A DNA stretch of 64,000 bases from Lumbricus terrestris. Taxonomy: Eukaryota; Annelida; Clitellata; Crassiclitellata; Lumbricidae. Shown here in pieces: positions 366 through 62,581 of this stretch. Where the stretch lies: the NCBI GenBank assembly GCA_949752735.1, contig OX457042.1, positions 58,875,797 to 58,939,796 of the forward strand, read 5' to 3'. Below the pieces are notes generated by a model, which made no database searches, was not told the DNA's origin, and saw nothing but the letters and a program-made list of their open reading frames with translations. The translations under genes and the position numbers were made by a program. How positions within the stretch are numbered: the first letter of the stretch is position 1; every line of letters begins with the position of its first letter.

Positions 366-1483
366 TCGTGTGTGCGGTTTCCATCAGCTTTACTCAGAGA
401 ATCAAGAAACAAGAAAATAGATATCCGTATGTGCGTGGAATTACTAAGCTGAGAAATGAAATCTACATACTCTTTGTATCGTCTTCTTTTACTCCTTCTC
501 CTGTAATTCATGTAGTTGAAGATCAGAATCCATTTAATTGGCAAAAAGAAATCGATTTAACAGGGATTAGATATCCCGATGACATTGGATCCAATGAAAG
601 GAAAAATTGTCTATACGTCACTGAATATGATGAGAAATGCGTATGGAAGATAACAAGAGAAGAAGATGGCGGACACAAAATCATTGAATGGCTTAAACTT
701 GATTATAAACCACGTAGCATGTCACTGTCGACTGATGGTCGGTTCTTGGCTTTCAATAATTTATCGGCCTCTCTGTTGATCTACGGATCAGACGCAGAAC
801 TCATTCGATCCATTCAGTTACCGGTACCAACAGACACCAGGCAACCTGTTCACGCAGTGGAAACAGCCATCGGGAATTTCATCATTCTGAGTGTGTCGTA
901 TGAGTTTGAAATGAAAAGGTTGAGCGTTGAATTGAGCAGAGATAGACAGATGGCCAATCGTCGTTTTATTCCTTCAAATGAAACACAACTGATTGGTCCG
1001 TCAATCGATTCAGAGGATCGCGTGTTTGTGGCTGACTATGGGAATGATGTGGTGATTAAATGGAGACCAGATGGATTATGTAACGTCGGAGGACAAAATT
1101 ATGATTGGATACAAGAGGATGGAGAGAGTGACTCGCGTGTTTCGAGTACAGAAGCGATTTTTCCGAAATGGTGCATCAGCGAATTGACCAGAGATGGAAA
1201 GATGATCATCCGTCGCTTTATTCCCTCAAATGAAGCACAGCAACTGAATCATCTTTCGTATCTCTCACTCGATTCAGAGGATCGCGTGTTTGTGGCTGAC
1301 TCTCATAATGATAAAGTGATTCTCTTTGATTCCGATCTAACATGGAATAGAATTCTTATTCCAACCGGAGACAAAGAAGAAGCGTGGATGCGGAATCCAA
1401 ATAGATTGTGTTACGATGAAGAAAAGAAACAACTGATCGTCGGAGGATTTCAAGCTGACGTTTACTCTATAAGTTTGAAATAA
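366..1483 (+). CDS. Gene A, last exon: NHL-like beta-propeller domain (gene partial)
   Basis: This exon encodes about 370 residues of a beta-propeller-like domain and ends at TAA 1481-1483. Blade-like repeats carry motifs such as DSEDRVFVAD, NDKVILFDSD and LCYDEEKKQLIVGG, which resemble NHL repeats (a protein or RNA binding fold). A pyrimidine tract ending in CTAG at 365 gives the start used here. A second acceptor, CATCAG ending at 387, is also in frame with the alternative upstream donor. The frame is open upstream of the acceptor, but the conserved acceptors argue against a separate start codon. Compared with copy B it holds one additional repeat segment. Inside that segment it has lost about 8 residues (the YDEEKKQLI part). 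Exons 1-5 of this copy lie left of the window. Function is inferred; I do not recognise a named gene. Confidence 0.8.
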
Positions 1484-1484
1484 A
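1479..1484 (+). promoter_or_regulatory. AATAAA overlapping the stop codon of gene A
   Basis: AATAAA contains the TAA stop. The same overlap is found at the ends of copies B (16146-16151) and C (40939-40944). It could be a polyadenylation signal giving a very short 3' UTR, or simply conserved coding sequence (Lys-stop-ACT). Confidence 0.35.
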
Positions 1485-3268
1485 CTCACATTTTGCCCAA
1501 ATCGTCCCTCGATAATGAGCTACTAATTCCATTGTTTAATTTGAATATTTAGCAGATAATTATAAGCACTGCCGTTTTTAAGGTTCTACGAAAGTCGGTG
1601 CAAAAAGCTACCACTGGGCGCGTGCCGGTTGATCAGCCGTTTATTGGCCAATACTAGACCATGTGCATTGTGCAGCGTGCATTAGGTCTATAATAGGCTA
1701 TGTGCATCATTAAGAAATTGATGTCTAACACTGGTCTAGTAAATTGGCGCGTATAGAACTGGGTGTAGGCTACCCGTAGCTGTAATTACCATATCCGTAC
1801 CCGTGAAATGCGTACCCAAACGTACCCGACCCACAGTACGTTGAAACTCGCAGACGCGGGTGAACTCTCTGTCTCTAGTTTTGACGTGAATCTTTGGACT
1901 TTGGTACTGAGACAAATTGTCGCCTTCGCGTATCTCCACTTTTGTGAATTCCGAGATAATCGAGGTTAAAAAATAATTTAGGCCCATGAACATCATACAC
2001 AAAATATCATATTAAAATGTCAACAGCAGGGACAGTCGTGTTAGTGAATTGTAAACAATTCATTTAAAAATATGAAGTTTGAAAATTGCTTTTAAGACAT
2101 TAATTTTGTGAATTTCTTTATAAAATGGACTTAATGCAGATGCATTTTGTGCCATTTATGGGTTATAATCCGCGGTCTGTAGGTTTATTAATGCTAAGCA
2201 AGAACACAGTAACTGACATTTTCCATATTTACGAGCAAAAATATTTAAAATTATTTTTCAAAAGAAATGATTGATTCTTTCTACATTTGTTAGTGTAATG
2301 CGGAAAAGAATAGGATTTTTTCTACTTGGTAGGAAACAATTTGGTCTTTTGAGTTGATCTCAGAAGTCAGAACTAGGTTTTTGCAGATACGTGGTTCTTG
2401 CTTATGAGGGCAGAATATAGACCTTTTCACGCGCGAAATATTATTAATCTTTCATGATATCAGGTTGTGCATATTTAATTAGGTAGGGCAAAAGAAATGT
2501 TGTGTAGGACCGTTCGTGTATTGTTTACCGTTGAAATTCTTTAATTTAAAATGAATTCCTTCTATTTATCTTTGAATACGGAAGTCAGGGAGAGTTATTT
2601 ATTCAAGCTTGGTAGTGTTGGTTTGCAAGTTGACGTTGTTTACCCACACATTGAGGAAATGGATGCATCGAAGTGGGTCACGACGCACGCTACTCGACCG
2701 GGTAAGAGTTGTGATTATAATGTTATGTAAATTGTTTGTTGTTCCCAATCATATTGATGTAAGCCCAAAATGTGATGCTTGATCACCGTCTTGGTGGACA
2801 ATCTAAAGATTTTGTTATAGCCTACAGGATCTTTGCTCAAAATGTCAATGGTTATCAGAAAATTTTAATTTGCATTACATGCATGGTATAATTATAGTCA
2901 AGATCAGGGCCAGCCTCAAACACAGGCAAAACAGGCAGTTGCCTGGGGCGCAACATCTGGGGCACCATTTCTCCAAAAATATGTTTGACAGTTTTAGATT
3001 TGTAATTTCTTGGCCAGTTTTTCAATTCCAACAATTATTTTAATTTTTAAGACATTTCCAGAGTTTAGTCCACTAACAACAGTATCGTGGAATTCTAGTA
3101 TCTACCAAAATAGTGCAGGCCACCTGTTTTGTTAGTAGTCAAGAATAATTATATAATTATATATACACTGAAGATATAAGTATTCTGTGATAATGTATTC
3201 CTGTAAATTGTTTGAACTGCATAATTGTTCACTGTAACCGGTTGCGGTTTTGTCAAATGGATTGTTGA
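1484..3268. other. Intergenic A-B; duplicated downstream flank at 1731-2040
   Basis: Positions 1731-2040 match the sequence downstream of gene C (about 40992-41350), including GGTCTAGTA, AACTGGGTGTAGGCTAC and CCCGTGAAATGCGTACCC. The flank was therefore duplicated together with the gene. The remainder is AT-rich with no exon I can support. I searched it for copies of exons 1 and 2 of genes C/D and saw none. Confidence 0.6.
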
Positions 3269-4289
3269 TTAACCCTCAGATTACCAGAATTTTTTTGATA
3301 CACTGAGTACCAGTGGGGTCAAAAATGACCCCAACACAATTTTTTCAATAAATTCCTTGTTTTTTGCATTTTTATTAATTGCCAAAAAACAAATAGTAGT
3401 AAAGCAATTGGAACATGTTAGGCTGTTGAAATGAATTAAATTTTTCATAGTTATAGGTATGTTTTAATGTTCAAAGTGTTCGAGTATTCAATGTCCGAAA
3501 CTAGCATAGAAAATATCCGGTCATTGCACTGTTACAGTTTACAGTTCATGCATGTATACTGGGCATGTTCCTTGCACACATTGCATGTACAGGCTGCACA
3601 GATTATGCTGGCCTTTTTTATCCTTTTCCCTTGGACAAATGGAACATCGTGCACGTTTCTTCGACAGGGTTGGAGACGACATCGTGAACATTCTCAGCAT
3701 CTGATCAGCGGTGTCTACAACACACCTTCATTGAATTGTAGTCCATAATAATGACTGGCTTCTTTGATGGAATATTGTTGTTTATCTCTACCTGACTGTG
3801 CATGCTGCTGAGCAGGACTACAGCTTTTCCTTTCTTTGGACAGTACGACACCAGTGCTGCATCGTCATGGAAGCCAAAAAAGGAAGTGAGGGCTTCGCGA
3901 CCTTTATGCCTTTCTGTTGGGCTTCGTAATTGTGGTGATTTGTCGGGATAAATGTGTATATAAATTATTATCTAACACAGATTTTATTCAGATAATACTA
4001 TAGAAAGGATTTATAAATTATAATTATGAATTATTTCAAAGGATACCATTGAAAGTATTCAAAAAAGCTATTGGGGTCAAAAATGACCCCACTGGTTCTC
4101 AATGCTATAAAAGATTGCCAGCGCCCTCTGGTGATAAACAAGGGAAATATTAATTGATATTTCGATAGAGACTAGGTACATCTTGAAAGTCACAAATTTT
4201 TAATAAATTTGCACTAACAGATTTTGCGCAGTGTACAGTCAAAGTAGGCTTGGGGTCATTTTTGACCCCACTGGTACTCGCAGGGTTAA
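3269..4289 (-). mobile_element. piggyBac-type element, internally deleted, with TTAA ends
   Basis: The ends are TTAA followed by CCCTCAGATTACCAG on the left, and ACTGGTACTCGCAGGG followed by TTAA on the right, with subterminal GGGGTCAAAAATGACCCC-type palindromes on both sides. TTAA target duplication and CCC/GGG termini are hallmarks of piggyBac. The interior on the minus strand holds a decayed C-terminal transposase region (separate entry). At about 1 kb it is too short to be autonomous. Confidence 0.85.
3545..3960 (-). pseudogene. Decayed piggyBac transposase C-terminus
   Basis: On the minus strand, across at least two frames, one can read the piggyBac signature GGVDTVDQ-like (here GVVDTADQML) preceded by a PVIIMDYN-like stretch. 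After it comes a cysteine-rich C-terminal tail with CSICP, CAAC and CKEH-type spacing, matching the C-terminal zinc-binding domain of piggyBac transposases. Frameshifts separate the pieces and the DDD catalytic core is missing, so it cannot be active. Confidence 0.75.
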
Positions 4290-7206: not shown

Positions 7207-7393
7207 TTGTATGATCTTCCATTGGAGATGTTGGACATGATATTGCAAAAGTCTTATCTGCATTGGATATTGAATCCACCAACAAAGCAAAGAGACGAAG
7301 ATGTTATCAGATCCCTTATGTCAGTCGACGTTTGCTTCAATCAAAGAATCACCAGAAAACGGTTCAAGAGGGCAATCTGGCGACACTTGAAAG
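7207..7393 (+). CDS. Gene B, F-box-like exon (exon 3 equivalent)
   Basis: This 187-bp exon starts in phase 0 after TTCCAG and ends TTGAAAG before GTAAGG (phase 1). The translation begins LYDLPLEMLDMIL and continues with SLMSVDVCFNQRI and RFKRAIW. That is the F-box pattern: LP..ml..Il, then a helix with a conserved CFN, then basic aromatic residues. F-boxes bind Skp1 and recruit substrates to SCF ubiquitin ligases. The match is by eye and the domain is divergent. The acceptor's upstream tract has been replaced by a MITE, and no exons 1-2 were found for this copy, so splicing of this copy is uncertain. Confidence 0.75.
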
Positions 7394-7589
7394 GTAAGGT
7401 TTCTTCTAAGCAATGTTACAATTGTACAACTTAGTTCTCTCGATCATTCTCAAGACTTGCACAAGCGTTTTGAGACAAAAACAATCTTAAAACGTTGAGA
7501 GTGTCATTACTGTCCCCATAAATTATTATGGTTACCTATCAATGGTGCCTTTTAAAGTAAGCCTACCTCAAGAGCATCCCTCAGGCTAC

Positions 7590-7830
7590 ATGGACGAAAA
7601 CATTTTCCGTGGATAGGTCTCTTCTCTGCTATTTACAGGAAAACAAACAGTATCATAAGTTCCATGATAAAATGTTTCCTGACAAAATATCCCCGACGTG
7701 ATGATACGGACAAAATGTCGCAGTGACACAATTTCGCCTGCCAAAATGTCGTGGACAGGAGGTCGTGGATAAAGTGTCTTAGACAAAATGTCGGGGTCAA
7801 AATCATAATGTCGTGGACAAAAAATGGCTC
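7590..7830. repeat. Degenerate GGACAAAATGTCG array in gene B intron
   Basis: There are about ten irregular units of the type GTGGACAAAATGTC spaced 15-25 bp apart. They are the same kind of unit as the arms of the foldback element at 52654-55096 in the equivalent intron of copy D. No opposing arm is visible, so this is likely a solo arm or remnant. Confidence 0.6.
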
Positions 7831-8348
7831 ATACAACAAATGTCTTAGGGCAAATGGCATCAATCTATGCGAAGATTGAAGTATACACACACGAGAAGAT
7901 AGAGTATGTCAGCTGACCAGAATAAAAAAAGCTGCGCATCAGACAAAGTTTTTAGAAAGTACACTACACTACAGTATGCACAAACGATCAATGGACATTA
8001 AAAAGAAATGAAACGCAGAAGTGAACATTGACTGACGAGAAGAGTAAGGAAGAAACACGAATAGATATCTTATGCTATAGTAGCTTCCTTTCAGTAACAG
8101 TGCATGAAGAATTGACAGGAGACCTGAGTGTGGTATTTGCGGACAGTGAGCGCCTTCTGTTTTCAAGTTGCAGATATCCGTTACTTCGTTTCTAATTCTA
8201 ATTCCATTCTGTTTTCTATTCTGTCACCAGAATTTCTATTCACTACAAAGTTCTGACAATAAATTTCGCTACTGATTGAAATTTTCTCATGTAGACTAAC
8301 ATAGATGTGATGTCATTCAAAGGATATGATGGTTTAAATGTCTTTCAG

Positions 8349-8636
8349 ATTTCTATAGAAAAACCAAGAAGCGATCAACAATCATTAGAAACAATAGAAA
8401 TTATCTTTTAGAAAATATTCAACCAAATGATGAGTTAATCGCTTCGCTGTTGTCTCTAAACTGCTTAACGCAAGAACAAAGTCACTTCATCCAACGACAG
8501 AATTCAACACAAGATAAGAACGCAGAGCTTTTGTTTATCTTGGAATCGTTTGACGAAAAACGATTTTCAAATTTCGTCAAATGTCTTCGACGAACCAACC
8601 AGAAGACAGTGACAAGGATAATGGAAAATGGAGGAG
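8349..8636 (+). CDS. Gene B, CARD exon (exon 4)
   Basis: The exon follows TGTCTTTCAG and ends GGAGGAG before GTGAAA. It is phase 1 on both sides, so the G of the previous exon plus AT makes Asp. A basic linker (KTKKRS) leads into NRNYLLENIQPNDELI, then LTQEQSHFIQ, KNAELLFILESF and FSNFVKCLRRTNQKTV. These reproduce helices 1-6 of a caspase-recruitment domain (LLENI..., LT.EE...I, ...LL..L, F..F...L). CARDs mediate homotypic assembly in apoptosis and innate immune signalling. Length of about 90 residues is typical. All three visible copies are open and well conserved. Confidence 0.82.
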
Positions 8637-8689
8637 GTGAAAGTATCAACTTTATCTCTCACTCGAGTGCAATCATCGAAATTTTTCAA

Positions 8690-9605
8690 GTTTACATTGA
8701 CCAGCAGTCCAGCACCTGTCCTTGAAAGAACACAATCATATCGATATCTAAAAAATGTCAAAAGATCTAGGAATTCTCAAACGCATTTGGAATCCTCCCA
8801 CAACAGATCAGAACCTCATTCTACTATTATCTCATACATCCATACGTATCCTACCGCAATATAGTGTGGGCCTCTGCATTTAAGTCAAACCTCTCTAAAC
8901 TTCTTGTCCTCCAAAAACGTGTAATACGATTTGCTGCAGCACACACAAAAACAGAATCCTTGCGCCTTAAAAATACTAAAATCAGATCAGATAAGGCAAT
9001 TACAAATTGGGATATTAATGCGCCGATATATTATTCATAATCAACTACCTGTTCCCCATAGAGATTATTTGAAGTTCAGTAAGCTTACTGAATACTGATA
9101 TTCAAGATAGTTGCTTGAGAAATAGGTATATTGACCTTTCCCACATGTATAAACCTACACCCTATGCCCGCACTATTACAAGGCTTAGATCTACATCTAT
9201 TAAATAATTATTGGACCAAGACCCTAGTATTCCGCCTGGTATTTGCTCCCTGCCGTCTTCGTTTACTCAAACGAGAGTTTTCTGCCGACATCCAATAAAG
9301 AATTTAAACCTCTAAAATTCTGGGGAGATACTGTTAATTCACCTTAATATGGGAGCGTGCAGTTGTTTCCGTATATGTCACTGCACTCTCCTAACTCATC
9401 TTTTGTTTGTATTATTATGATAATTCAGAATTTATTATTCGTGAAGCTGCTTCATTTACCATTCGGTCGTGCGGTATATTCCTAAACCAATGCTCTCAGG
9501 TGGCCCTGCTCCTTTGGGTTCCCTGGGTAAGCCGACAAATTATACAACTGATTTATGTATTATTTGTAATGAATGTGTTGGTTGCCGAATAAAAAAGTAA
9601 AATGA
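8690..9605 (+). mobile_element. LINE 3' fragment in gene B intron 4
   Basis: Broken frames spell the C-terminus of a non-LTR retrotransposon ORF2: LIHPYVSYRNIVWAS, then LLVLQKRVIRF. A 3' tail follows, reading towards CGAATAAAAAAG at about 9587. The 5' part is missing, as usual for LINE insertions. Multiple stops show it is dead. Confidence 0.75.
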
Positions 9606-9987
9606 TATGTTAAAGATCTGGGACAAACATAATTTTCTCAAAAAATAATGATAATATGAATAATAAAAAATAATAATAAAAAAATATAATAATAGTCTAA
9701 TAATAATAACAACAACATAATAATACTATAAACTATATTAATTAATATAAATAATATTATTACATAACTATTATTAATATTATTATGTAATGAAAACTAG
9801 GTCATCGTTTGACAGTTGTAACTGGAAACCAACTCAAAACCACGCACCTTTTCCAACGTCTCTCAATTTGTATGCAAAGATAAAGCGCCGTTGCATTTCG
9901 AGGCACATTCACACGGTTGTTCTGTGATGAGGACCGCTAACTAGAGAAAAAAAAATTCGTGCTGTTTCTTTTAAAAATTTTATATTT
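9606..9987. other. AT-rich intronic sequence
   Basis: Imperfect AATAAT runs (9640-9790) and unremarkable intron sequence. No exon or element ends recognised. Confidence 0.5.
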
Positions 9988-9992
9988 AATAA

Positions 9993-10027
<35 letters not shown>

Positions 10028-10057
10028 AATAATAATAATAATCATAATAAAAATAAC

Positions 10058-10112
<55 letters not shown>

Positions 10113-10142
10113 GTAGTAGCAGTAGTAGTAGAAGTAGTAGTT

Positions 10143-10231
<89 letters not shown>
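9988..10231. repeat. Compound microsatellite (ATG)n-(AAT)n-(AGT)n
   Basis: Three trinucleotide runs lie head to tail: GAT repeats to about 10026, AAT/TAA repeats to about 10110, then AGT repeats to 10231. The AGT run resumes at 12769 after the hAT-like insertion. Long Asn, Ser, Tyr or Val frames across it are translation artefacts. Confidence 0.95.
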
Positions 10232-12768
10232 CAGGGGCGGATCCAGGGGGCCAATCCGGCCATGGCTCCCATTCTAAATCTCCATGGGACGTGCCCCCCA
10301 TCCATGCTCGCCCAAAAGATTTTTTGGCAGGGAGTCAGTCATGGCCAGGAGAAGTAATATATAAATGTAATTAAAATCTAAGCCTCTCACACAATTGCAT
10401 TGTCTTAATATATAAAGCAATGAAAAGAAACAATCTTTCAACAGCATCCGACTATGATTTAAATTTTATGGCATACAATGTTTGTTATTCGTGGATATAT
10501 TCTTTAGTATAATGTAAAAATATTAACACTGATAAACACAATTATAACTAATAACAACTAACTATTATTTACAAAGCAAGTTAGCACTAAAAACAGTATT
10601 AGGGATTTTTTCCCAGATGTAAAAAATTTAAGGGGCAAAATTTTTTAAGTTTTGAATTTAGTCTAGATGTGCAAGAAACTGCAGTGAATGATCACACATG
10701 TTTACTTCTTGTTCTTATTTATTCCTTACTATGTTTCATTCAGTGGTTGGAAGTATTTTATTTACTGTAGTCTTAAAAATAATATAATAGGGTGAGGTCT
10801 ACTCATACTTTAACTTGGAATTATTTAGCATTGTGTGCTTCCTATTATAAATACATAAACACTTTTTAAAATACTTTTGTTTGCCATTAATAACAGCTAA
10901 TAGAGCATTGTTGCATGCTGTATGCACTAGCCCTACAATAACTATTATTCACTATTATTATTTATGGGGAAAGCAGTGGCGGCGCCAGGATTTCAGTTTT
11001 GTGGGGTTAAAGAGGGTAAATCGTCCAAAAATTTTATTTTTACATGGGAAAAAATGAATGACCTTTTTTAGGGGTTTAGCCCCCTCAAGCCCCCTAGCGC
11101 CGTCACTAGGGGAAAGTCTCTGGTTATGGCCCTTAGCCACGCATAACATACATCCATAACATAGCCATAATGTCATGGATATATATATATATATATATTT
11201 ATATATTTATATAAATATAATATATATAATTAATTATATATAATATTATATAATTATACAGTCTACCAAGAAACATTTGCAATGCAACTTTGTCAACCAA
11301 CTGTCCATTGCCAGTGTGTGCCTTCACTTCAATCTGAGACTCAAATGTAAGCTTCTCGCACAATTGCATTGGGAAATAAAAACTTTGCAAACCACTTTCA
11401 CGAACAAGAGTTTGATCTATGCTTCTAAAAAAAACTTAATGTACCTATTTGCTTATTCCTGGCCCCTTTTTCTACAAATTTCTTGTGACAGTTTAAAAAT
11501 CGAATGTTCTAGCAATAATAATATTATTATACTCAAAGTTTTCAAAGGTCAACCTGGCCAAATCAACAAGATGTGAATGAGATATTGTAGCCCTTCAAAT
11601 ATTTAAATCTATCATTTTGTTTTTGCTAAATGATCTCTTTGCAGAAGCTACCACTGATGGAATATGCAAAAAACAGAAACACTTTGATTGCACGCTCCTC
11701 CTAGCCCCTGAAAATGTATGGCCAATTTCTTAATCTGTGCGTTCTTGGGGGCTTAGCCCCATAGCCCTGATAAATTCCGCCCATGCCTATAAGAGTGCAT
11801 TTCTTGTATGCTATACTGTGTATACTGAATTTTTTTTAGCAATCTGATACAATCCTGTTAAAATGAGTGTAACTTACTCTTAATATTTGCACAAATACTA
11901 TTTTTGTTCAACTGAATGACGTCTCTCCAGCGCTATCTTTCAAATTTGAAACTGTCAAATTTCAAACTGTTTTGGTTCTGTTGTTTGAACACCTGAACAC
12001 CTAGTAAAACAACATCATTACTACATGACTTTAAGATTTTGGACCCCACAATTTATTAGTTCTTGGCTGGTTTGTGTACCATTTGTTATTATTTAACTGC
12101 AAAGTGTGTCCTGGTCAGCAATTCATGACCATCTTAGGAAACATGAATAAGCTAATTCTAGTGCAGAAAAGTCAGCTCATGTAATATAATTATACTCATG
12201 TCTGAAGTTATTCACTATAATAACCCAGCAACAGCAGAACTGAGCTGCTGGACTCGATACATGCAGATATTATTAATATTGTATATATTACCGTAATATT
12301 GTGTTGTATATATTTTTATCAGTACTGAACAAATTGAGTAATTTTGCTAAAATGACATCTCACAAGGGCACTGTTGCAGTGTGGAAACTTAAAAAAAAAC
12401 TATTTTTGAATTATAGCCCTCTAGAGTCTATATTTATTGAGATCTTACGGCACTCCTATTAGCACTGAAAAGAACAGCTATTTTGCTAAGATAACAGCTT
12501 AAAATGCTACCATTGCAATGTGAAAATTCAAAAAGTTTCTGGTGGGAGGGGCGTATTCCCTCCCCACACTCCTCCCCCATCACTCTCGGCGCTATACGCG
12601 CCTCATGATTGTCCTCCAGACAGTCAATAATCTACACCTCCAGAAACCTCAATCACCACATAGGAGGGACTAAATTAAACTCTGGTTTCGGTCAAACGAC
12701 TAAAAAAAGGCCGACCCAAGCCCAAATTTTTTTGGCCCCCCCTTCGAAAATTCCTGGATCCGCTCCTG
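10232..12768. mobile_element. Non-autonomous hAT-like element inserted in an AGT microsatellite
   Basis: It begins CAGGGGCGGATCCAGG and ends CCTGGATCCGCTCCTG, an inverted repeat typical of hAT. It is flanked by GTAGTAGT on both sides. The 8-bp duplication falls inside the AGT repeat, so it cannot be proved independently, but the termini are clear. No transposase frame survives in 2.5 kb. A smaller MITE is nested at 10974-11108. Confidence 0.82.
10974..11108. mobile_element. 135-bp hAT-type MITE nested in the larger element
   Basis: The left end CAGTGGCGGCGCCAGG and right end CTAGCGCCGTCACTA are inverted repeats. A perfect 8-bp duplication, GGGGAAAG, flanks it (10966-10973 and 11109-11116). 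The family also occurs at 21507-21776. Confidence 0.9.
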
Positions 12769-13042
12769 GTAGTAGTAGTAGTAGTAGGTTTGATGCGACA
12801 GAGTTGGACGAAGCTTTGCTGTTCCATAATATGATGTCACTAAATGTGCTCTGAAAATATAGTTTATATTTCTTTACGAAAATGTTCTTATCACTTCGTG
12901 TTCAAATTATGCACAACTTAGTTTGTGTGACGTGTTTTCACCCCAAAAAGTAGTCTTTTAGCATAACTAAAGTTATCGAAACATAATTATGTCTAAGCAT
13001 GTTAACAGGGAATTAATTTCAAAACATTGCTTTTGCTTATAG

Positions 13043-13390
13043 GAGCAACAAAAATTGAACTGCAAAGTCGTGGTGTAAATTGTACAGCGTCAATTGAGTC
13101 ACAGATGCTTCATAAGAAAATCGAAGATTTGCAAAACGGAACCAAATCATGGTCACATAAAACTTGTAAACTCATCAGTCAACGGAAGGAAGAAGCAATA
13201 GAAATTCTCAGCTCTCAACTGGAGAAACAGACTGTGGTCGTTTGGATTTGGTGTCGTTCGCAAGCAGCCCTTCAATATATTCAGAAGTTGTACGAATCGA
13301 ATAAGCTGAGAGATGTCTTATTTGAAAGTATTCAAACTCCTCTTTCAACGGTGATCAACATCGATACGAATCAATTCAAGAGAACCATTG
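13043..13390 (+). CDS. Gene B, alpha/beta domain exon (exon 5)
   Basis: The exon starts after GCTTATAG with GA completing a Gly codon (phase 1). A polar, Lys/Glu-rich segment (LHKKIEDLQ..., likely helical or coiled coil) leads to the strand VVVWIWCRS, the helix ALQYIQKLYESNKLRDVLF and the strand TVINID. This beta-alpha-beta pattern is reminiscent of small domains following death folds in invertebrate proteins and faintly of the TRADD N-terminal domain. I cannot confirm either. The 3' end is ambiguous: ATTG before GCAAGT (GC donor, phase 1, used here) or GGCAA before GTATTT (phase 2, ending 13394). Both rejoin the propeller exon in frame. If unspliced, a stop follows at 13402. Confidence 0.72.
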
Positions 13391-51730: not shown

Positions 51731-52653
51731 GTCCATTATTTTGTGGCGAGAGCGTAGAGGTAAGTATCTTTCAATTTATTTCGAAGGACAAGAAAATAAT
51801 CATTAGGCCTCCTCGTGCGGTCTTCCTACGCCTGTAGCGGTATATGTCCGTTTTGTGACAAATCATTCGATATAACTATGAACTATCGGAAACGCACGAT
51901 ATCATCCTGAAGTAGGCACCACCGCTGGCAAGGATCGAGCATTGTCTCCGGTTCCTTGATACGCGTCCAGGTCTCCCCTGCTCATTGCAGGAAAACAAAT
52001 ATCATTATAAAATACTCGAATGTCTTAAACAGCCAAGGTTTCGCGAACATCTCGAAGTTGATGTTTCAAAATCCTCGCCTTAGGCAAATGCAGTCTCTCT
52101 GTTTAAGTGGTTGCTGTCTGCTGGAATTCCATAATATACCCACCAGAAATCTAGTTTGGAAATCCGTCCTCTACAGCAACCAGCCGATCAGAGCATTGTG
52201 TCATTGGGGCAGAGAAGAATTAAACGATAATTCAGAATCATATTTATTATTTTCTAATGAAACTACGGATTGTGCATAATATGCATTTTCATCACATGAG
52301 TAATAGTGCATGAAAATTGATAGGCTTATTGCATTTGAAATTAGTGGGTCGGGCATAAGTATTGTCTTGAATGCCTTCTATATTCAGGGTGAATCAAATT
52401 TTATTTCATCGCTTCGGTCATAAAAGATTTCTATTACGGTATCTGAAAAGTTTTTGCCTTTTTTGGACTGGGAGCGCCTCTGATTGGATTTATTGCACGG
52501 GTGCTATCTAAATTCTTGAAATGAATGAATGAATTAACTCTGTTTCTATTTCAGTTTTCGTTCCGTAACCGTCCGTTTTCTAATCGTTTCTATTAGATCA
52601 CCGAAACCAAAAATTTGTGTTGTAAGCTAACAGATCTGTGATGTCACTTAAAG
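51731..52653. other. Gene D intron 3, SINE-tail at 52460-52535, otherwise nothing recognised
   Basis: GGGAGCGCCTCTGATTGG..CTATCTAAATTCTTGAAATGAATG is another member of the SINE-tail group. The last 60 bases (AGATCTGTGATGTCACTTAAAG) align with the intron end before the CARD exon in B and C. Confidence 0.5.
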
Positions 52654-53109
52654 ACGTGGACGGATAAATTGTTCCCGGACAAACAGTCCCCGGACAAACA
52701 GTCCCCGGACAAACAGTCCCTGGACAAGAAGTCCCCGAATCAAATTCCGTGGACAAAAAGTCCACGGATGAAATGTCCCCGGACAAAAGTCCCAGCTTAA
52801 AATGTCCCTTGGAAAAAGGGTAGGCTACCTATAGGTCCCAGCGCATGGGGTGCCTATACCGGCAAGAAGAGTTTAACTGACAGAGCTTTCCAAATGTACG
52901 TGACTGTTTTATTGTTTGTGAATAGAACTAAATATTTTTTAATAATCAACCAATAATTTCAAACTGCAGTTTGGCTCACAAGATTCTGCTAAACATACTA
53001 TTATCAATTATATTTTAAATCTTGCCTCACGTTAGGAAGGTACAAGTTAATCAAGGAGCTTAGACAGTTTTCATAGCATCTGTCTTCCTTTTACCATAAT
53101 AGGCATAAC

Positions 53110-53610
53110 CTTACTCTATCAAGGAGGTTAAGAGAAAGCAACTAAATGCAATGAGGAGGATGAGGATTAATAGGAAACTTACATATGCGGCTGAAGGCAA
53201 GAATCAGAATAGAAGGGTGTACTGAGAGCCTGGAAAGTTGGGTAGAGAAATGAGAAAAGGATGTCGGTTGTCACCTTTACTACTCAACATCTACGCAGAA
53301 GAACTGGTTAGAGAGGAATACTCTAGATGATTTAAAAAAGAGGATAAAGGTCGGAGGAAGATGGATCAAGGCGCTAAGGTTTGCGGATGACCAGGCAACG
53401 ATGGAGTGATGTCAGAAAGGCCTCCAAGATACGATGGCCAGACTGAACACAATATGCAACGAATATCTAACGCGAATAAATATAAAGAAGACAAAAGTTC
53501 TGAAGATAAGTAAAGGAAAGGAAATGAAAATCAATATTCATATAGGCCTAGAAGAAAACAAATAGAAACAAGTGAAGGAATTCGCTATTTTTTAATTTCC
53601 AAACATGCCG
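53110..53610 (+). mobile_element. LINE reverse-transcriptase fragment inside the foldback element
   Basis: The plus strand shows GREMRKGCRLSPLLLNIYAEE and then RWIKALRFADDQATM, i.e. the RQGCPLSPLLFN and FADD blocks of a non-LTR polymerase in shifted frames. Truncated at both ends. Confidence 0.7.
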
Positions 53611-53704
53611 TTTCCTCTAACATTAGCATCTACAGCCAGACAGATTGGCGCCTTTTTATGGCTGCCGCAGTGCCGCTACTTAATTTTTTAAAACCTTATT
53701 ATTA

Positions 53705-54627
53705 CTGGCTTTAAAACCCTGCTTCGCCCGGGTTTCGTCAATTTTTCCCCCAAATTTCCCCCACCCCTCCCCACCCCTTCACAACACGCCACCACTAACT
53801 CCGACCTCCACCGGTACGCCACCCGTGAAATTTTGGTTTTCGGGGAAAAAATCCCCCCGAAATTTTCCCTCCACACCCACATTCCGCAACACGCCACCAC
53901 TAACTCCGACCTTCACCGGTACGCCACCCGTGAAATTTTGGTTTTCGGGGAACATATTTTCGACCCCCAAATTTCTCACACCCATCCCTCCCTCACCCCT
54001 ACACAACACGCCACCACTAACTCCGACCTCCACCGGTACGCCACCCGTGAAATTTTGGTTTTCGGGGGAAAATAATTTTCCCCCAAAATTTTCCCCACCC
54101 CCTTCTTCATCCCTCCACAGCACGCCACCACTAACTCTGACCTCCACCGGTACGCCACCCGTGATATTTTGGTTTTCGGGAAAACATTTCCCCCAAAATT
54201 TCTCCTTCCCACCACCCCACCTTCCACCCCCTCCACCACACCCTCCCCCGACCCCACCCAACCCCACCCCACCCCTTCCCCACAACATGCCACCACTAAC
54301 TCTGACCTCCACCGGTACGCCACCCGTGAAATTTTTTTGTGGGACGAAGTGTCAAAATAAATCCGGACATCCATCCGGACATACAAACGGAAGGAGTCAA
54401 GGCCGTAGCTAGCGGGGTGTTTGAACACCCCCCCGAAATGGAAAATGTGAAAAATAATATAATGTATTTACGAGCATATGACGTAAAAACCATGAAATAA
54501 AACCATGAAAACACCCCCCGAAATGAAAAAATGTAGTTTTTGGGAAGGGAAATTGGTGAAACACCCTCCGAAATAAAATCCTGTTTACGGCTTTCGGAAG
54601 GACAAACTTTGAGAAATATATTAAAGA
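53705..54627 (-). mobile_element. Helitron-like element, minus strand
   Basis: Read on the minus strand it begins TCTTTAATATATTTCTC after A and ends with hairpin CCCGGGCGAAGCAGGG and CCAG before T (CTAG expected). The interior has about five units with CACGGGTGGCGTACCGG and GTTAGTGGTGGCGTG, as in 28233-29086. A MITE interrupts it at 54396-54594 near the 5' end. Confidence 0.78.
54396..54594. mobile_element. 199-bp MITE inside the Helitron-like element
   Basis: Perfect 8-bp flanks CGGAAGGA (54388-54395 and 54595-54602). Ends GTCAAGGCCGTAGCTAGCGG and CTGTTTACGGCTTT are imperfectly inverted. Removing it restores the Helitron 5' region CGGAAGGACAAACTTTGAG. Confidence 0.85.
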
Positions 54628-55131
54628 TACTTTGTTATTATTTCTGTGTTTTATTTTACATTTTTGATATGTAACCGGGTGCAGTGTGTCACCAGGAATT
54701 GTCTGATTTTAAATTAAACGAATATAGCCTACATATTTGTTTAATCGGAAATACACTGGATTAAAACATTTAGAAAGGTTCTTACATGTAGGTCTAATTA
54801 TACTGACAATGAATTTTTTGCACAAATAACTGTTAACTCGTGAAGGAAAGTGTGATTTTTTGTTCTTTAAAGGGACTCTTTGTCCAGGAACTTTTGTCTA
54901 GGGGCATTTTTTCCGGGAACATTTTGTCCTGGGACTTTTTGTTCCTGGACATTTTATCCGGGGACATTTTATCCGGAAACTTTTGTCCGGTGACTTTCTT
55001 TCCGGAGACATTTTGCTGGGGATTTTTTGTCCAGTGACATTTTGTTCGGGACATTTTGTCCATGGGACATTATGTCCGGGGCATTTTTCCTAGCACCATT
55101 CAAAGGTAATGATGGTTTAAATGTCTTTCAG

Positions 55132-55416
55132 ATTTCTGTCAAAAAACCAGGAAAAGATCTGCAATTATTAACAACAGAAATTATCTCTTAGAAAATATTC
55201 AACCAAATGATGACCTGATCGCATCGCTGTTGTATCACAACTGCATAACACAAGAACAAAGTCAACTCATCCGACGACAGAGTTCGGATCGAAATAAGAA
55301 CGACAGGCTTTTGTACGTCACGAGATCCTTTGATGAGGTGAAGTTTTCAAATTTTGTCAACTGTCTTCGACAAAACAACCAGAAGACAGTGGCAAAGATC
55401 ATGGAATACGGAGGAG
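55132..55416 (+). CDS. Gene D, CARD exon (exon 4)
   Basis: The exon lies after GTCTTTCAG and ends GGAGGAG before GTGCAA; 285 bp, one codon shorter than B and C. It reads NRNYLLENIQPNDDLI, CITQEQSQLIRRQSS, NDRLLYVTRSF and FSNFVNCLRQNNQKTV. The CARD helices are conserved, with more substitutions in helix 3 and 4 (SSDRNKNDR) than between B and C. The exon sits 36 bp after a foldback element, with its acceptor intact. Confidence 0.82.
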
Positions 55417-56265
55417 GTGCAAAGTATAAACTTTACATACAGGCCTGAACTCAACATGATTTGCTTTATGATAGCTGGGGTACTAGTAGCAGTTGTAGTA
55501 GTAGCAGTAGTTATCCATGTTAGGCAATCTAATCACACTTGCCGTAGATCTACAGTCATGATTAAAGAATGCCGGTTTAGCGCCGTTTAAACAAAAATTG
55601 ACAGGGTTGTCGGTATGCTCTATTTACCCATGTAAAGGTGGTTCTAGGACGATTGATCTTTACTAGTGGTAATTACGACATTTCTCTTTCATCATTAGTT
55701 AATAAATTGCAATCGTCGGCAGTAAGCCCCTATCAGGATCATTAACCAATAAATGAGGTAAACATTGGCGGATTTCGCTAAAATGTTCACGGTCAATATT
55801 GAAAGTCAGTCTCGCGAGATGTTTGGTAAACCAGAAAACAGGGTTGGAGGCGCGGTTTGAACAATTATAATTGTTGTCTGGTACCGTAGGGCCTTTGTAG
55901 GCATTTTAATAAAGCTTGCATTATTTGACCAAAACTTGCTCATTTAAGCAGGTGACACAGTTGAATAGCAACATCCAATAGTAAGCCTATTATAATACTG
56001 GAGGTATAATTCAATGAGTGGTACACATGGCTACAATTTAATAGTCCGATGGGCGCATGAAAACTCGATCTTTCATGGCGAATTTTAACTTTGAAAACAT
56101 AGACCTACGGTACTCATTGAGCCATTATTTCAGAGCAAATATTGACACTACCTGCATTCAAAGTCATTTTTCTTCAACTAAATTATTTGAATATAAAAGT
56201 TCTAATTGCAGATATTTAAAGTAGACATGTTTTTCAATACAAATACAGGTACATCGTAAGACGAT
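55417..56265. other. Gene D intron 4, nothing recognised
   Basis: Short AGT/GTA-rich stretch at 55480-55515, otherwise unremarkable AT-rich sequence. Confidence 0.4.
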
Positions 56266-56274
56266 ATTTCATAT

Positions 56275-59200
56275 GGTGTCACGACAACTCGTCTACCGAC
56301 AACTCGTCTAACGACAAGTGGTCTCCGGACAATTCGTCTACGACAACTGGTCTACGACAACTGGTCTACGACAACTGGTCTACGACAACTGGTCTACACA
56401 CAACTCGTACACGACAAAACGTTCATTGGGAATTCTTTAGTCAATGGCTGTTGCCGCTCAAAGAGAAGCTGGATTGAATAAAGGAAGTCTTTATAAAGCG
56501 AAAATCGACTAATGAAACCCTCGATGCAAAAAAGTAGAACGACGAAATGAACGAATTGATAAAAGTAATGCTTATAAAGTTTATGATGGCTTCATTAAAT
56601 GATCGCGTTGCTGAATAAATCCAGTTTCTGTTTCACCTATATAAAATCTTCATCTCGCTTCGATTTCAGAAATAAAGAAACCATCCAGCTTCCATTTCTT
56701 AAGCTTTCTTCTCATTAATCCAGCTTCTATTTCAGATCTATAAATACACTCATACAGCTTCCATTTCGTAAGCGTCTTAATTCACCCAGCTTCTATTTCT
56801 TAGGCGTTCTTCTAATTAATCCAGCTCCTATTTCAGATCTATAAATACACTCATCCAGCTTCCATTCTTAAGCGATTTAATTCATCCAGCTTCTATTTCT
56901 TAAGCGTTCTTCTCATTAATCCAGCTCCTATTTCAGATCTATAAATGCTTTAATCCAGCTTCCATTCTTAAGCGATTTAATTCATCCAGCTTCTATTTCT
57001 TAAGCGTTCTTCTAATTAATCCAGCACCTATTTCAGATCTATAAATGCCTTAATCCAGCTTCCATTTTTAAGCGACTTATTCATCCAGCTTCTATTTCTT
57101 AAGCGATCTTCTAATTAATCCAGCTTCTATTTCAGATCTATAAATACACTCATCCAGCTTCCATTTCTTAAGCGTTTTACGTCAATTCCTCTTCTATTTC
57201 AGATATACTACCTTCATCCAGCTTCCATTTCTTAAGCGTCTTAATTCATCCAGCTTCTATTTCTTAAGCGTTCTTCTCATTAATCCAGCTCCTATTTCAG
57301 ATCTATAAATGCTTTGATCCAGCTTCCATTTCTTTAGCGTTCTTCTCAATAATCCAGCTCCTATTTCAGATCTATAAATGCCTTAGTCCAGCTTCCATTT
57401 CTTAAGCCTTCGATCATTCATCCAGCTTCTATTTCAGACGTATTTTCTGTTCTACTCAAAATGACGCTGGGTTGATTAAGCTATTATTATTTAAATTGGA
57501 TATGGATTGATAAAAATAACGCTACTTGAAACAGAAGGTGGAGTGATGGAAAATGTCCTAGCTTAAATTATTCCATCGTCTACTTCAGCTATGAAAAATG
57601 GTGTTTTACTTAAAATGGAAGCTGTACTGATGAAATATAATTGTTATCTGTATGGAAGTTGGATTGATAAATACAATTGTTGCTATTTAAATAGAAGCTT
57701 GCCTAACGAACCAAATGAAATTTTGCATAATTGGAACTGGATTACTCCAGTGTTATTTTTTTATCAATATATCTCCAATTTAACCGGGAATGATTTTATC
57801 AATCCAGCGTCCATTTGAGTAGAACAGAATTTGTCTAAATCCGACTTCTATTTAAAGACAATTCTCTTCATCAGTCCATCTTGTGTACCACCAACAGAAG
57901 TTAGGACACACGAAACAATCGCGTTGGTAAATAGAAGCTGGATTGATGAAAATACTTCAATATTAAATAGAAGCCTGATTTAGAAGACTATTGCGTCTAA
58001 AATTGAAGCTTTTTTCATGAGAACAATTTCATTTGAAACAGAAGTTGAGCTGGATGGATGAAAATTTTCTTGCTTAACTTGAAGCTGGATTGATAAAAAT
58101 CTTCTTGCTAAAATTGGAGCTGGATCGCTGAAAATAACGTTTGAGTGACGGAAACCGGAATAAGTATTTTTATACCTGAAATAGAAGCTGGATTGATGAA
58201 AATATTTTAATCCGTAAATTCGAGCTGGACGGATAAAAATGTTCTTGCTTAAATTTGAGCCTGGTTGGTGAATGTTTCTTCGTATATTGGGATTGAATTG
58301 ATGAAAATAACTGTTGGTTGAACAGAGGCTGGAATTATGAAAATATCGCTTGAGAAATGAAAACTGGATTAAGATATTTTATGACTGAAATGCAAGCTGG
58401 CATGATGAAACAATAGCCTGAGAAATGGAATCTGGAAGAAGATTCCTTATAGGTGAAATAGAAGCTTGATTGACGAAAATAACGCTTGAGAATTGGAAGC
58501 AGGACTTATGATAAAACGGTTGTGAAATAAAATTGGATTAAGGCATTTTTATATCTTAAATGGAAGCTGGATCAAGGTAATTTTATATCTGAAATAGGAG
58601 CTGGATTAATGATAAAACGCCTGAGTAATTGAAGCTGCAATAAGATTTTTTATGTCTTCAATCTTCAATTGAAGCTGGATGAAGGTATATTTATATCTGA
58701 AATAGAAGATGGATCGATGAAAAATGCATGATTGATAGACGTTTGATAAAAGAAAGCTGGACAAACGTTTTTTCAGCTGAAATAGAAGCTGGATGCATGT
58801 TGAAACACATGAATGAAAATTAACAGTCCAGTTTCCAATTATCAAGCGTTATATTCGTCAATCCAGCTTCCATTTCACCTATAAGGAATCTTCATCCAGC
58901 TTCCCTTGTCCATGCGTTTTTTATTAATCCAGCTTCCACTTCACATATAAAATATCTTAATTCAGCTTCCACTTCTCAGCTTTATCATTACGCAGATGAA
59001 AAATACCTTAATCCAGCGTTCATTACTCAAGCGCTTTTCAATAATCCAGCTTCCACTTCACATATAAAAAATCTTAAACCAGCTTCCATTTTAGATATAA
59101 AAATACCCTAATCCAGCTTCCATTTCCGATATAGAAATATCTTAATCCAGCTTCCATTTCTCGTGCATTATTTTCGTCAATCCATGTTGTCTTTCAGATA

Positions 59201-61229
59201 TAGCATTCCTTCATCATGCTTCCATTTCTAATGTGTTATCTTCATCAACCAGCTTCTTTGTCAAGTATAAAAACACCTTTATTCTGCTTTTATTTTCTAA
59301 GCGTGTACTTCGTTAATCCAGCTTCGATTTCACCTATTATGTCCATCATCCAGCTTCAATTTCTTATGCGTTTAATGCATTAATCCGGCTTCTATTTCAC
59401 CTGTAAGAGAACCTTCCTCCAACTTCCATTTCACCCATAAATACCTTTCATCCAGCTTCCATTTAGGAAGCGTTCAGGTCACAAATCCAGCTTGTATTTC
59501 ACCTGTAAAAGGACCTTTATCCAGGCTTTATTTCTCAAGTATTCGAGTATGCATTTTTACTTTTCAACAATCCAGATTCTATTCATCAAAAATTTCGTCT
59601 CATCAGTCCAGCTTCTATTTGAAATAATTTCTTTTTCAATCCAACTTATGTTTTAAAAACAATAATTATTTTTCGTCAATCCATGTCCAATATGAGTTAG
59701 AACATTTTCATCAATCCAGTTCCAATTTAAAGCAAGAACATTTTCATCAATCCAGCTTCCATTTAGGTTACAATGAGTCTGTATGAATCCGACATTTATT
59801 TTGCGAGAATTCTTTTCATCAATAATGCTGGAAAAAGCTTAAGAAATGGAAGCTGGATGAGTGTAATTATATATCTGAAATAGAAGCTGGATGAATGAAC
59901 GAACGCTTAAGAAATGGAAGCTGGATTAAGGCATTTGTAGATCTGAAATAGGAGCCGGATTAATGAGAAGAACGCTAAAGAAATGGAAGCTGGATGAAGT
60001 TATTATATACCTGAAATAGAAGCGGAATTGAAGAAAAACGCAAAAGAAATGGAAGCTGGATGAAGTTATTATATACCTGAAATAGAAGCGGAATTGATGA
60101 AAAACGCTAAAGAAATGGAAGCTGGATGAAGGTATAATATATCAGAAATAGTAGCTGAATTTATGAGAAGAACGCTTAAGAAATGGAAGCTGAATGAGTG
60201 TATTCTATATCTGAAATAGGAGCTGGATTAATGAGAAGAACGCTTAAGAAAGGGAACATGGATTAAGGCATTTATATACCTCAAATAGAAGCTGGATTAA
60301 TGAGAAGAACGCTTAAGAAATGGAAGCTGGATCAAGGCACTTAAAGATCTGATATAGAAGCGGAATTGACGAAAAACGCTAAAAAATGGAAGCCGGATGA
60401 ATATATGAGAAATAGTAGCTGAATTTATGAGAAGAACGCTTAGGAAATAGAAGCTGGATGAATTAAAAACGCTTAAGAAATGGAAGCTGGATGAATTAAA
60501 AAAACTAAAGAAATAGAAGCTGGATTAAGGCATTTATAGATCTGAAATAGGAGCTGGATGAATGGAAAACGCTTAAGAAATGGAAGCTGGATGAAGGTAT
60601 AATATATCTGAAATAGAAGCGGAATTGACGAAAAACGCTAAAGAAATGGAAGCTGGATGAATTAAAAACGCTTAAGAAATGGAAGCTGGATGAGTGCATT
60701 TGTCTATCTGAAATAGTAGCTGGATTAATGAAAAGAACGCTAAAAAATAGAAGCTGGATGAATGATCGAACGCTTAAGAAATAGAAGCTGGAGGAAGGTA
60801 TTATATATTTGAAATAGAAGTTGGATGAATGATAATTGTGTTTACCAGTGCGATCATTTCGTGAAGCCACTTTAAAATTCACTTGCATTATTTTCATCAT
60901 TTCTGCTTCGTTAAAAGGACGTGCATTTCGTCGGTTTGTTTTTCCATTGAGGGTTTCATTAGTCGATTTTCGCTTTATAAGGAGTTCTTTTAATCAATAC
61001 AGCTTCCCTTTCAGCGCCAACAGCCATTGACTAAAAAATTCCCAGTGAACGTTTTGTCGTGTGCGAGTTGCGTGTGGACCATTATTTTGTCTGTAGACCA
61101 GTTGTCGTAGACCAGTTGTCGTAGACCAGTTGTCGTAGACCAGTTGTCGTAGACCAGTTGTCGTAGACGAATTGTCTGGAGACCAGTTGTCGGTAGACGA
61201 GTTGTCGGTAGACCAGTTGTCGTGGAACC
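56275..61229. mobile_element. Giant foldback element, 4.95 kb, array-built inverted arms
   Basis: It starts GGTGTCACGACAAC and ends GTTGTCGTGGAACC, flanked by a perfect 9-bp duplication ATTTCATAT (56266-56274 and 61230-61238). Outer arms are 14-bp units TCTACGACAACTGG (56275-56410) and the inverse (61060-61229). Next come inverted GAATTCTTTAGTCAATGGCTG and GCGAAAATCGACTAATGAAACCCTC segments, then long arrays of TCCAGCTTCCATTTC units whose orientation flips near 57460, 58835 and 59820. No transposase found. Confidence 0.93.
56640..60835. repeat. TCCAGCTTC / GAAGCTGGA arrays forming a near-palindrome
   Basis: The basic unit of about 30-35 bp is TCCAGCTTCCATTTCTTAAGCG or TCCAGCTTCTATTTCAGATCTATAAAT. 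Forward at 56640-57440, reverse at about 57900-58800, forward at 58820-59800, reverse at 59830-60835. Units nearest the outside are most regular, those at the centre most diverged. Fills the body of the foldback element. Confidence 0.9.
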
Positions 61230-61370
61230 ATTTCATATTTGTTACTTCTCTCGCCTATTATTTTTAACTTATAGCGCAGTATTTAGTTAGCGACAAGCGA
61301 CTGGTTATGGATCCCTGGCATCACAATGGATAAAATAGTCATTTAGAATTTGTAAATAGCCTACCTGAAC

Positions 61371-61941
61371 AATGGTTGCACTTGCTCCCTTGTCTCGTCT
61401 CGCCTTGATTATGCTAATGCGATTTTTGTTGACATTTCAGACTATGAGTTACATAGGCTGCAACGCATCAAAAATTCCTTAGCTCGGGTTGTGCTGCGCG
61501 TCCCACTACGATCAAGTTCTTCAGTTTTGCTTCATCAGCTGCATTGGCTTCCTGTCGAGTTCAGAATTAAATTCAAATTGGCCTGTTTAACCTACAAATC
61601 CCTCTCTACCGGAACACCTCCCTACCTTCAGTCACTGCTTACTCCTTACATTCCTCCTCGTTGCCTGCGATCATCAAACATGGGTCTTTTAGTTGAACCT
61701 CGATGCAGAACTGTTATGGGCTCGCGTGCATTCCATGCCTCTGCTCCCAAAGAATGGAATCTACTTCCACTCTCTCTTCGTTGCTCAAATTCACTCCCTA
61801 CCTTCAAAAAATGGCTCAAAACTCACTATTTCTCTTTGGCTTTCAAGCACATGGACCTTTAACTGAATCTTCCTCTTGTGGCTAACTATCCGCGCCTCAG
61901 ATTCACACTTTGGTGTGACCTTGCGCGCGTTATAAATTTAT

Positions 61942-62019
<78 letters not shown>

Positions 62020-62020
62020 G
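61371..62020 (+). mobile_element. CR1/L2-like LINE 3' end with (TAA)n tail
   Basis: The plus strand reads SRLDYANAIFVDISDYELHR, then LHQLHWLPVEFRIKFKLACL, TGTPPYLQSLLTPYIPPR, AFHASAPKEWNLLPLSLR and FKKWLKTHYF: the C-terminus of a CR1/L2-type ORF2. The 3' end runs into a TAA microsatellite (61942-62019). Nearly intact locally but 5'-truncated. Confidence 0.88.
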
Positions 62021-62233
62021 GCTAATAATAGTAATAGTAATATTTCAAAAGCGTGATATTAGTTCTTTGTGAATAGCCTATGCCCAGTTTCAATTCTTGT
62101 TTAAATTAGACTTCGTTACGGTGACGTGCATTCAACCAAAGATATAGCCTATTATTTTTAGTTTAGCTGAAGTTACCGAAAACATGTCTGAGTACGTTTT
62201 GTTGGCATTTGAAAACATTGTTTTTGCTGTCAG

Positions 62234-62581
62234 GTGCAACCAAAATTGAATTGCAGAGCCATGGTGCAGATCGTACAGCGTTAATGGAATCACATCAGCT
62301 CCATCAAAAAATCGAAGATCTTCGACGCGGAACCAAATCTTGGTCGCATCAAACTAATAAACCCAAGAGTCAACTGAGGGAAGAAGATATGGAAATTCTG
62401 AATTCTCAATTGGACAGAAGGACTGTGGTCGTTTGGATTTGGTGTCGTTCACAATCAGCCCTTCAACATATTCAGAAGTTTTATGAATCGAATCAACTGA
62501 GAGATGTATTCTTTGACAATATTCAAACTCCGCTTTCAACGGTGATCAACATCGATAGGAATCAATTCAAGAAAACCATTG
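62234..62581 (+). CDS. Gene D, alpha/beta domain exon (exon 5)
   Basis: The exon lies after TTTTTGCTGTCAG with GT completing Gly (phase 1). Basic helical part LHQKIEDLRRGT, then strand VVVWIWCRS, helix ALQHIQKFYESNQLRDVFF and strand TVINID. The 3' end shows GGCAAGTGCTTG, so the GC donor context GCAAGT is conserved, whereas the alternative GT site changes from GTATTT to GTGCTT. The propeller exon of this gene should lie right of the window. Confidence 0.73.

Follow-up and report, generated by a model that had tools for sequence, protein, structure and literature searches.

Four tandem gene copies pairing a CARD with an NHL-type propeller, part of a large family of putative cytosolic sensors

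The stretch of DNA analysed here (the window) comprises 64,000 nucleotides (nt), positions 58,875,797-58,939,796 of contig C8, which is 61.7 Mb long in an assembly of 1.056 Gb and 331 contigs. It carries four copies of one gene on the + strand (U0, U1, U2 and U3), in which the encoded order is a short N-terminal tail, a helical domain of ~62 residues (the second domain), a CARD, an RRM-like and TRADD-N-like alpha/beta domain, and an NHL-type propeller contained in one exon. We see an even chance that the window samples a huge tandem family of cytosolic sensors, in which the signalling half is conserved and the propeller changes, that is, a CARD/NHL variant of the expansions that combine a Death-fold domain, TRADD-N and a propeller. 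This reading draws on the exon order, the intron phases, the copy number, the CARD, the NHL repeats, the gradient of constraint along the protein and the internal duplications, all of which are observed. The presence of CARD domains, together with the gene structure, suggests an animal source.

The exon set was derived by comparison between the copies at the DNA and protein levels, and comprises exon 1 (with the start codon), exon 1b, the second-domain exon, the CARD exon, the alpha/beta exon and one large propeller exon, in that order. In U2, the most complete copy (21185-40943), the six exons join in consistent phase to give a 705-residue protein without an internal stop. The intron phases along the gene are 1, 0, 1, 1, 1; since the CARD and alpha/beta exons each start and end in phase 1, either could be gained or skipped without loss of frame. 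Exon 1b was detected through conservation between copies only, and brings exon 1 and the second-domain exon into phase agreement: a direct join of these two in U3 breaks the frame, and insertion of exon 1b restores it. U3 (45315-62581) has five exons, the first five of the U2 set, and its propeller exon would fall beyond the window, where the downstream flank partly reads N. U1 (7207-16150) has the last four exons, and neither exon 1 nor exon 1b was detectable in a 114 kb scan. U0 is represented inside the window by its propeller exon; its CARD and alpha/beta exons lie outside, ~12 and 3 kb before the first position of the window, and no second-domain exon was found in the 20 kb fetched upstream. 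The next copy downstream (loci L075-L076, genome positions 58950971-58967776) has exon 1, exon 1b, the second-domain exon and the alpha/beta exon, together with a CARD exon whose coding sequence is divided over two frames. Some of these incomplete copies (U0, U1 and the next one downstream) may be damaged. Introns in the window, calculated from the exon coordinates, measure ~0.6-7.8 kb.

The first-pass annotation of this DNA had described tandem copies sharing exon order, phases and lengths between 366 and 62581, which are exact exon ends (the U0 propeller acceptor and the U3 alpha/beta donor). The order and phases stand, the exon junctions of the window copies being phase-compatible. The copies agree in length in the second-domain exon (187 nt in all three copies), the CARD exon (285-288 nt) and the alpha/beta exon (348-357 nt), but not in the propeller exon (1118, 890 and 1115 nt in U0, U1 and U2, respectively). 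The exons, with the evidence that places each, are listed below.

366-1483, + strand: U0 last exon, NHL-type propeller, 372 amino acids, internal duplication (913-1057 against 1165-1321); Pfam and copy comparison
7207-7393, + strand: U1 second-domain exon, 187 nt, called F-box-like in the first-pass annotation; copy comparison
8349-8636, + strand: U1 CARD exon; Pfam CARD, E 9.8e-9
13043-13390, + strand: U1 alpha/beta (RRM-like) exon, donor G^GCAAGT; copy comparison
15261-16150, + strand: U1 propeller exon, 296 amino acids, no internal duplication found; Pfam NHL, E 2.2e-4
21185-21284, + strand: U2 exon 1 with ATG, conserved in U3; copy comparison
22842-22912, + strand: U2 exon 1b; phase agreement and conservation
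23870-24056, + strand: U2 second-domain exon; exon joining
29144-29431, + strand: U2 CARD exon; Pfam CARD, E 4e-7
34976-35332, + strand: U2 alpha/beta exon, donor G^GCAAGT; exon joining
39829-40943, + strand: U2 propeller exon, internal duplication (40375-40437 against 40630-40698), NHL below cut-off; exon joining, repeat comparison and profile match to PDB propellers
45315-45414, + strand: U3 exon 1 with ATG; exon joining
46517-46584, + strand: U3 exon 1b; exon joining
47180-47366, + strand: U3 second-domain exon, donor G^GCAAGG; exon joining
55132-55416, + strand: U3 CARD exon; Pfam CARD, E 1.9e-7
62234-62581, + strand: U3 alpha/beta exon, donor G^GCAAGT; exon joining

Genome searches indicate that these genes belong to a large family, which the first-pass annotation had proposed to be lineage-specific; relatives occur in other sources too. 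Family counts are lower bounds, as the scored candidates are the best ones. All 150 scored candidates match for the alpha/beta exon (344 candidates), the second-domain exon (333 candidates) and the CARD exon (550 candidates), giving at least 150 of each, and 111 scored of 1472 propeller candidates yield at least 221 matches. Most of the matches listed lie on C8 at ~42-61 Mb, in blocks on both strands. A second cluster, of second-domain and alpha/beta exons, is found on C10 at 6.3-9.2 Mb, and none of the CARD and propeller matches listed is on C10; the C10 copies may have diverged or may carry a different domain set. Separately, C8 at ~41.8-43.4 Mb holds many CARD matches (67-77% identity) and few second-domain or alpha/beta exons among the matches listed, and this group is perhaps a second branch with another domain set.

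Exon order was examined in 2.1 Mb of C8 (57.85-59.95 Mb) on the + strand, using 220 listed positions (56 second-domain, 51 CARD, 58 alpha/beta and 55 propeller); each propeller contributed one start, and later pieces of a match were excluded, including one at 58.204 Mb that lacks a listed first piece. In 189 of the 219 neighbouring pairs the exons follow gene order (second domain, CARD, alpha/beta, propeller, next gene), whereas 2000 shuffled orders average 54.8 and never exceed 82; 38 full four-exon chains are present. Missing steps are to be expected because the lists hold the best matches only. The exon order is not due to chance. Among the matches listed, stops occur in four of the 150 alpha/beta sequences, one of the 150 second-domain sequences, four of the 150 CARD sequences and five propeller sequences, a choice by score that favours intact copies and under-counts decayed ones. 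At a neutral divergence of 0.15 substitutions per site, the fraction expected to be free of stops would be ~25% for the second domain, 10% for the CARD, 9% for the alpha/beta domain and 0.1% for the propeller.

In the window copies the alpha/beta exon ends at a GC donor. The donors of 32 alpha/beta exons (loci L009-L073, window copies included) read G^GCAAGT in 26 cases and T^GCAAGT in one, and the remaining five have a GT donor at the identical position (GTAAGT in four, GTAAGC in one); all 10 of the propeller acceptors counted end in TAG. The simplest reading is that the junction between the alpha/beta and propeller exons is a real splice site. At 47180-47373 of the window, the U3 second-domain exon also has a GC donor, and such donors follow this exon in two of the 26 loci counted.

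Among 5.8 billion proteins searched, the joined protein has four relatives. By our reading, P0003 (368 amino acids, on a contig of 1408 nt) covers exon 1, exon 1b, the second domain, the CARD and the alpha/beta domain, and P0001 (531 amino acids, contig of 1884 nt) covers the second domain, the CARD and the propeller, with the alpha/beta exon absent and the CARD exon joined directly to the propeller exon at the propeller acceptor of the window genes. Both are read as having the exon boundaries of the window genes with no intron-like residues between them; given the length of the window introns, the two contigs are most simply complementary DNA, or else intronless copies. P0003 stops five residues past the alpha/beta exon and therefore says nothing on the alpha/beta-propeller junction. 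Its C-terminal tail resembles neither the start of the propeller nor read-through of the donor, and is possibly another last exon giving a propeller-less form. Of 262 candidates for the alpha/beta profile 145 matched, and of 13 for the second-domain profile 12 did; most of these proteins are short reading frames.

The CARD named by the first-pass annotation was confirmed with the Pfam hidden Markov model, as all three window copies score above the curated cut-off of 23.9 bits (35.6, 30.4 and 31.5), and so do the relatives P0001 (25.2) and P0003 (24.0). The nearest natural CARD chains in a sequence search of the PDB are those of NOD1, a weak likeness (E 0.29) exceeded by that of a designed chain (E 0.0031). 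The second domain is conserved and probably helical, with an LPxExLDxIL motif in its first helix; a structure model of it has three helices at low confidence (pLDDT 60, pTM 0.31) and is too poor for searching.

Structure prediction refines what had been called simply an alpha-beta domain: the predicted fold is an RRM-like two-layer arrangement (strand-helix-strand-strand-helix-strand), and by this model the domain resembles TRADD-N, without a sequence match. It lies between a Death-fold domain (the CARD) and a variable domain (the propeller), which is the position that TRADD-N takes. The hallmark of the TRADD-N beta2-beta3 turn, a tiny residue followed by Ser or occasionally Cys, is absent; the turn in 32 genomic copies has Thr in 28, Ser in three and Ala in one, mostly after Gln or Arg. 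Strong-looking PDB matches of this domain to CFA/I fimbrial fusions were set aside as sums of repeated stretches of 7 bits each.

The propeller proposed from the sequence is probably of NHL type. Two of the three window propeller exons exceed the Pfam NHL cut-off of 20 (23.5 and 21.5 bits), as does the relative P0002 but not P0001 or P0004, and the propeller profile matches NHL propellers in the PDB (TRIM71, Brat and Thin), mainly through one repeat stretch. Matches to the designed 'Pizza' NHL proteins are inflated by summed stretches (~6.7 bits each), so weight was put on Thin and TRIM71, each of which has a stretch that passes alone. In the U0 and U2 propeller exons, repeated stretches of 31-75 nt stand 252-264 nt apart, with one further U2 pair separated by 354 nt, and the U1 exon has no recurring stretch of at least 30 nt; two of the three window propellers thus carry an internal duplication. 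The duplicated unit is ~84-88 codons, a typical NHL blade is smaller than this, and the unit would be one or two blades. As most other propeller matches listed come in two pieces that skip the same middle stretch, the longer form is the less common.

Constraint was measured as omega, the ratio of nonsynonymous (dN) to synonymous (dS) substitution rates, pooled over three pairs of window copies with bootstrap 95% ranges. Omega is 0.32 (0.15-0.71) for the second domain, 0.28 (0.16-0.48) for the CARD, 0.50 (0.33-0.80) for the alpha/beta domain and 0.78 (0.57-1.07) for the propeller; adjacent domains have overlapping ranges. Over the first half of the propeller dN roughly equals dS, and in the last NHL part dN is lower. 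Across genome loci for the three smaller domains, after removal of partial and duplicate sequences and of pairs with dS outside 0.05-1.5, median omega is 0.32 for the second domain (29 sequences), 0.34 for the CARD (17) and 0.55 for the alpha/beta domain (32). Constraint declines from the second domain and CARD through the alpha/beta domain to the propeller.

The closest described systems are TRADD-N proteins. As described by Kaur et al. (2021, PMC8195603), the NCOA6-clade TRADD-N expansions of amphioxus have the order DED, TRADD-N, linker and WD40 propeller, and expansions are also reported in echinoderms and a sponge. TRADD-N is placed there where constant and variable parts meet, and is proposed to keep its neighbours inactive until a signal arrives (PMC8195603). 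The family described here likewise has a Death-fold domain followed by an RRM-like domain and a propeller in a many-copy expansion (lineage-specific in amphioxus), and its propellers vary, as do those of the NCOA6 clade, in which repeat number differs and recombination is thought by the authors to diversify them. It differs from what that text describes in having a CARD rather than a DED, an NHL-type rather than a WD40 propeller, an extra helical domain before the CARD, and no sequence-level TRADD-N match. The DEDD2-clade expansions (echinoderms and others; marine invertebrates) also combine a constant Death-fold and TRADD-N part with a variable flank, but usually with a DED, and number 18-23 copies in echinoderms (PMC8195603). 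Array size alone is not new, as at least 150 exons of each of three kinds here compare with 13-129 proteins in amphioxus and 357 in the sponge Amphimedon, the latter mostly with other C-terminal parts (PMC8195603).

TRIM-NHL proteins (TRIM71, Brat and Thin) resemble this family in having NHL-type repeats at the C terminus; of their hallmark RING and B-box, Pfam lists neither for the 705-residue U2 protein, which has a CARD instead (HMMER filters discard most matches above E 0.1 in the Pfam scans of window proteins). Apaf-1 and NOD-like receptors share the combination of a CARD with a C-terminal repeat sensor, and NOD-like receptors form large families in invertebrates. No description of a CARD with NHL propellers was found in the titles and abstract openings of literature on these domain combinations, a scope outside which most subscription papers fall. 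The first-pass remark that no described protein has this domain order stands within this scope for the exact order, and falls for the plan, since DED, TRADD-N and WD40 propeller have been described together (PMC8195603). The unusual features are the CARD/NHL pairing, the second helical domain and the array size.

By analogy with TRADD-N proteins, the propeller would sense and the CARD would signal. The propeller may bind a ligand (microbial, viral, damage-derived, or a modified host protein), with the TRADD-N-like domain restraining the CARD and propeller until binding occurs; binding would then free the CARD for homotypic assembly with a CARD adaptor or a caspase, and this assembly would start inflammatory or death signalling. 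Copies would differ in the target of the propeller and share a common output, and a join of the CARD exon to the propeller exon, both in phase 1 as in P0001, would add a form without the switch domain. Somewhat more tentatively, we propose that an undescribed cytosolic sensor repertoire is concentrated in one chromosome region, with a conserved output half (a new helical domain and a CARD), a TRADD-N-like switch, NHL propellers that have come to differ between neighbouring copies as internal segments were duplicated and lost, and a second output form made by skipping of the switch exon. Its scale would be comparable to that of the large sets of NOD-like receptors in invertebrates. How invertebrates, which have no antibodies, recognise a wide range of threats is still an open question. 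If these proteins are sensors, at least 100 genes stand in a known order within a few megabases, each with a signalling half that stays constant and a propeller that changes, and one could directly measure how large the repertoire is, how copy number varies between individuals and how segments are exchanged. NHL propellers with a CARD would then join the known designs that combine Death-fold, RRM-like and propeller domains.

Several results weigh against the sensor reading. The NHL assignment is weak: the third window propeller (U2) reaches 14.1 bits, below the cut-off, and the 30 matches listed in a genome search with the NHL profile include none in the window. Several unrelated ferredoxin-like chains score as high as TRADD-N against the alpha/beta model. 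No TRADD-N family is among the 25 shown of the 54 Pfam families matching 70 alpha/beta members, a PDB sequence search with the alpha/beta family gave no TRADD-N, and the hhalign score against human TRADD, the TRADD-N sequence covered by this comparison, lies inside the null, 24 and 23 of 100 nulls reaching it. Sequence likeness was accordingly rejected as proof, and as these tests fail the domain is named TRADD-N-like by fold only. Pfam lists neither NB-ARC nor NACHT for the U2 protein, unlike Apaf-1 and NOD-like receptors, and with no nucleotide-binding domain listed such a switch would be unusual. With an omega of 0.78 (range 0.57-1.07), relaxed constraint fits the propeller as well as diversifying selection does. 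The apparent lack of a signal peptide or membrane segment was judged by eye from the sequence.

Among the alternatives, it is unlikely that the second-domain exon encodes a divergent F-box, making the protein an SCF substrate receptor in which the propeller picks targets and the CARD clusters the ligase or is regulated by it. The LPxExLDxIL motif, the three helices predicted at low confidence and a Pfam F-box-like_2 match at E 0.056 in the relative P0125 (two of 17 sequences matched) are in keeping with it, and propellers act as substrate readers in known SCF receptors. However, Pfam lists no F-box family for any of the three window copies under the filters given above, a PDB sequence search with the second domain returned no F-box entry, and alignment by hhalign of 41 second-domain sequences with seven F-boxes scored 15.2 over 12 columns only, a value inside the null that four of 100 column-shuffled profiles exceed. 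These comparisons thus do not demonstrate the F-box of the first-pass annotation, and the proposed coupling to ubiquitination is unsupported. It is rather improbable that the array is an RNA- or stress-response family, with an NHL propeller that, like those of TRIM-NHL proteins, binds RNA or host proteins, and with a CARD that connects this binding to apoptosis during development or regeneration instead of serving to sense pathogens. The profile matches to TRIM71, Brat and Thin speak for this, TRIM71 and Brat being RNA-binding, but TRIM-NHL regulators are conserved, unlike the many diverging copies with a weakly constrained propeller seen here.

We consider it distinctly improbable that the array has only one or a few working genes and that most of its copies are duplicates in decay, multiplied with the aid of mobile elements and without a repertoire function. 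Retroelement fragments within introns, the lack of exons 1 and 1b in U1, the broken CARD exon of the next copy downstream and the stops in some scored exons would agree with such decay, but 149 of 150 second-domain, 146 of 150 CARD and 146 of 150 alpha/beta sequences (the best-scored ones) are free of stops, omega is ~0.3 for the second domain and CARD, and splice sites are maintained. A scheme in which the alpha/beta exon ends the protein at an in-frame stop and the propeller exon is a separate gene is very improbable indeed. Donor read-through does stop after four codons in U1 and U2, and later in U3, and P0003 ends shortly beyond this exon; against this, the donor position is kept (27 of 32 exons have GC there and the other five GT), the propeller exon comes next in order in 50 of 58 cases, and P0001 uses the propeller acceptor to join the CARD exon.

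The window also holds repeats and mobile elements. Rfam lists nothing in the window at gathering scores. Three fragments of reverse transcriptase lie in introns:

37001-37711, - strand: reverse transcriptase fragment in a U2 intron; Pfam RVT_1, E 2e-16
39269-39757, - strand: reverse transcriptase fragment in a U2 intron, just upstream of the U2 propeller exon; Pfam RVT_1, E 2e-15
51219-51650, - strand: reverse transcriptase fragment in a U3 intron; Pfam RVT_1, E 1e-13

A fragment like the one at 39269-39757 is present at 4-177, upstream of the U0 propeller exon, which suggests that the insertion predates the duplication. The long simple repeats at 17975-18346 and 9909-10357 are open on both strands and are not genes. 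What appears to be the same G-rich/C-rich minisatellite lies upstream of the U2 and U3 CARD exons (28197-29078 and 53684-54467), in opposite orientations.

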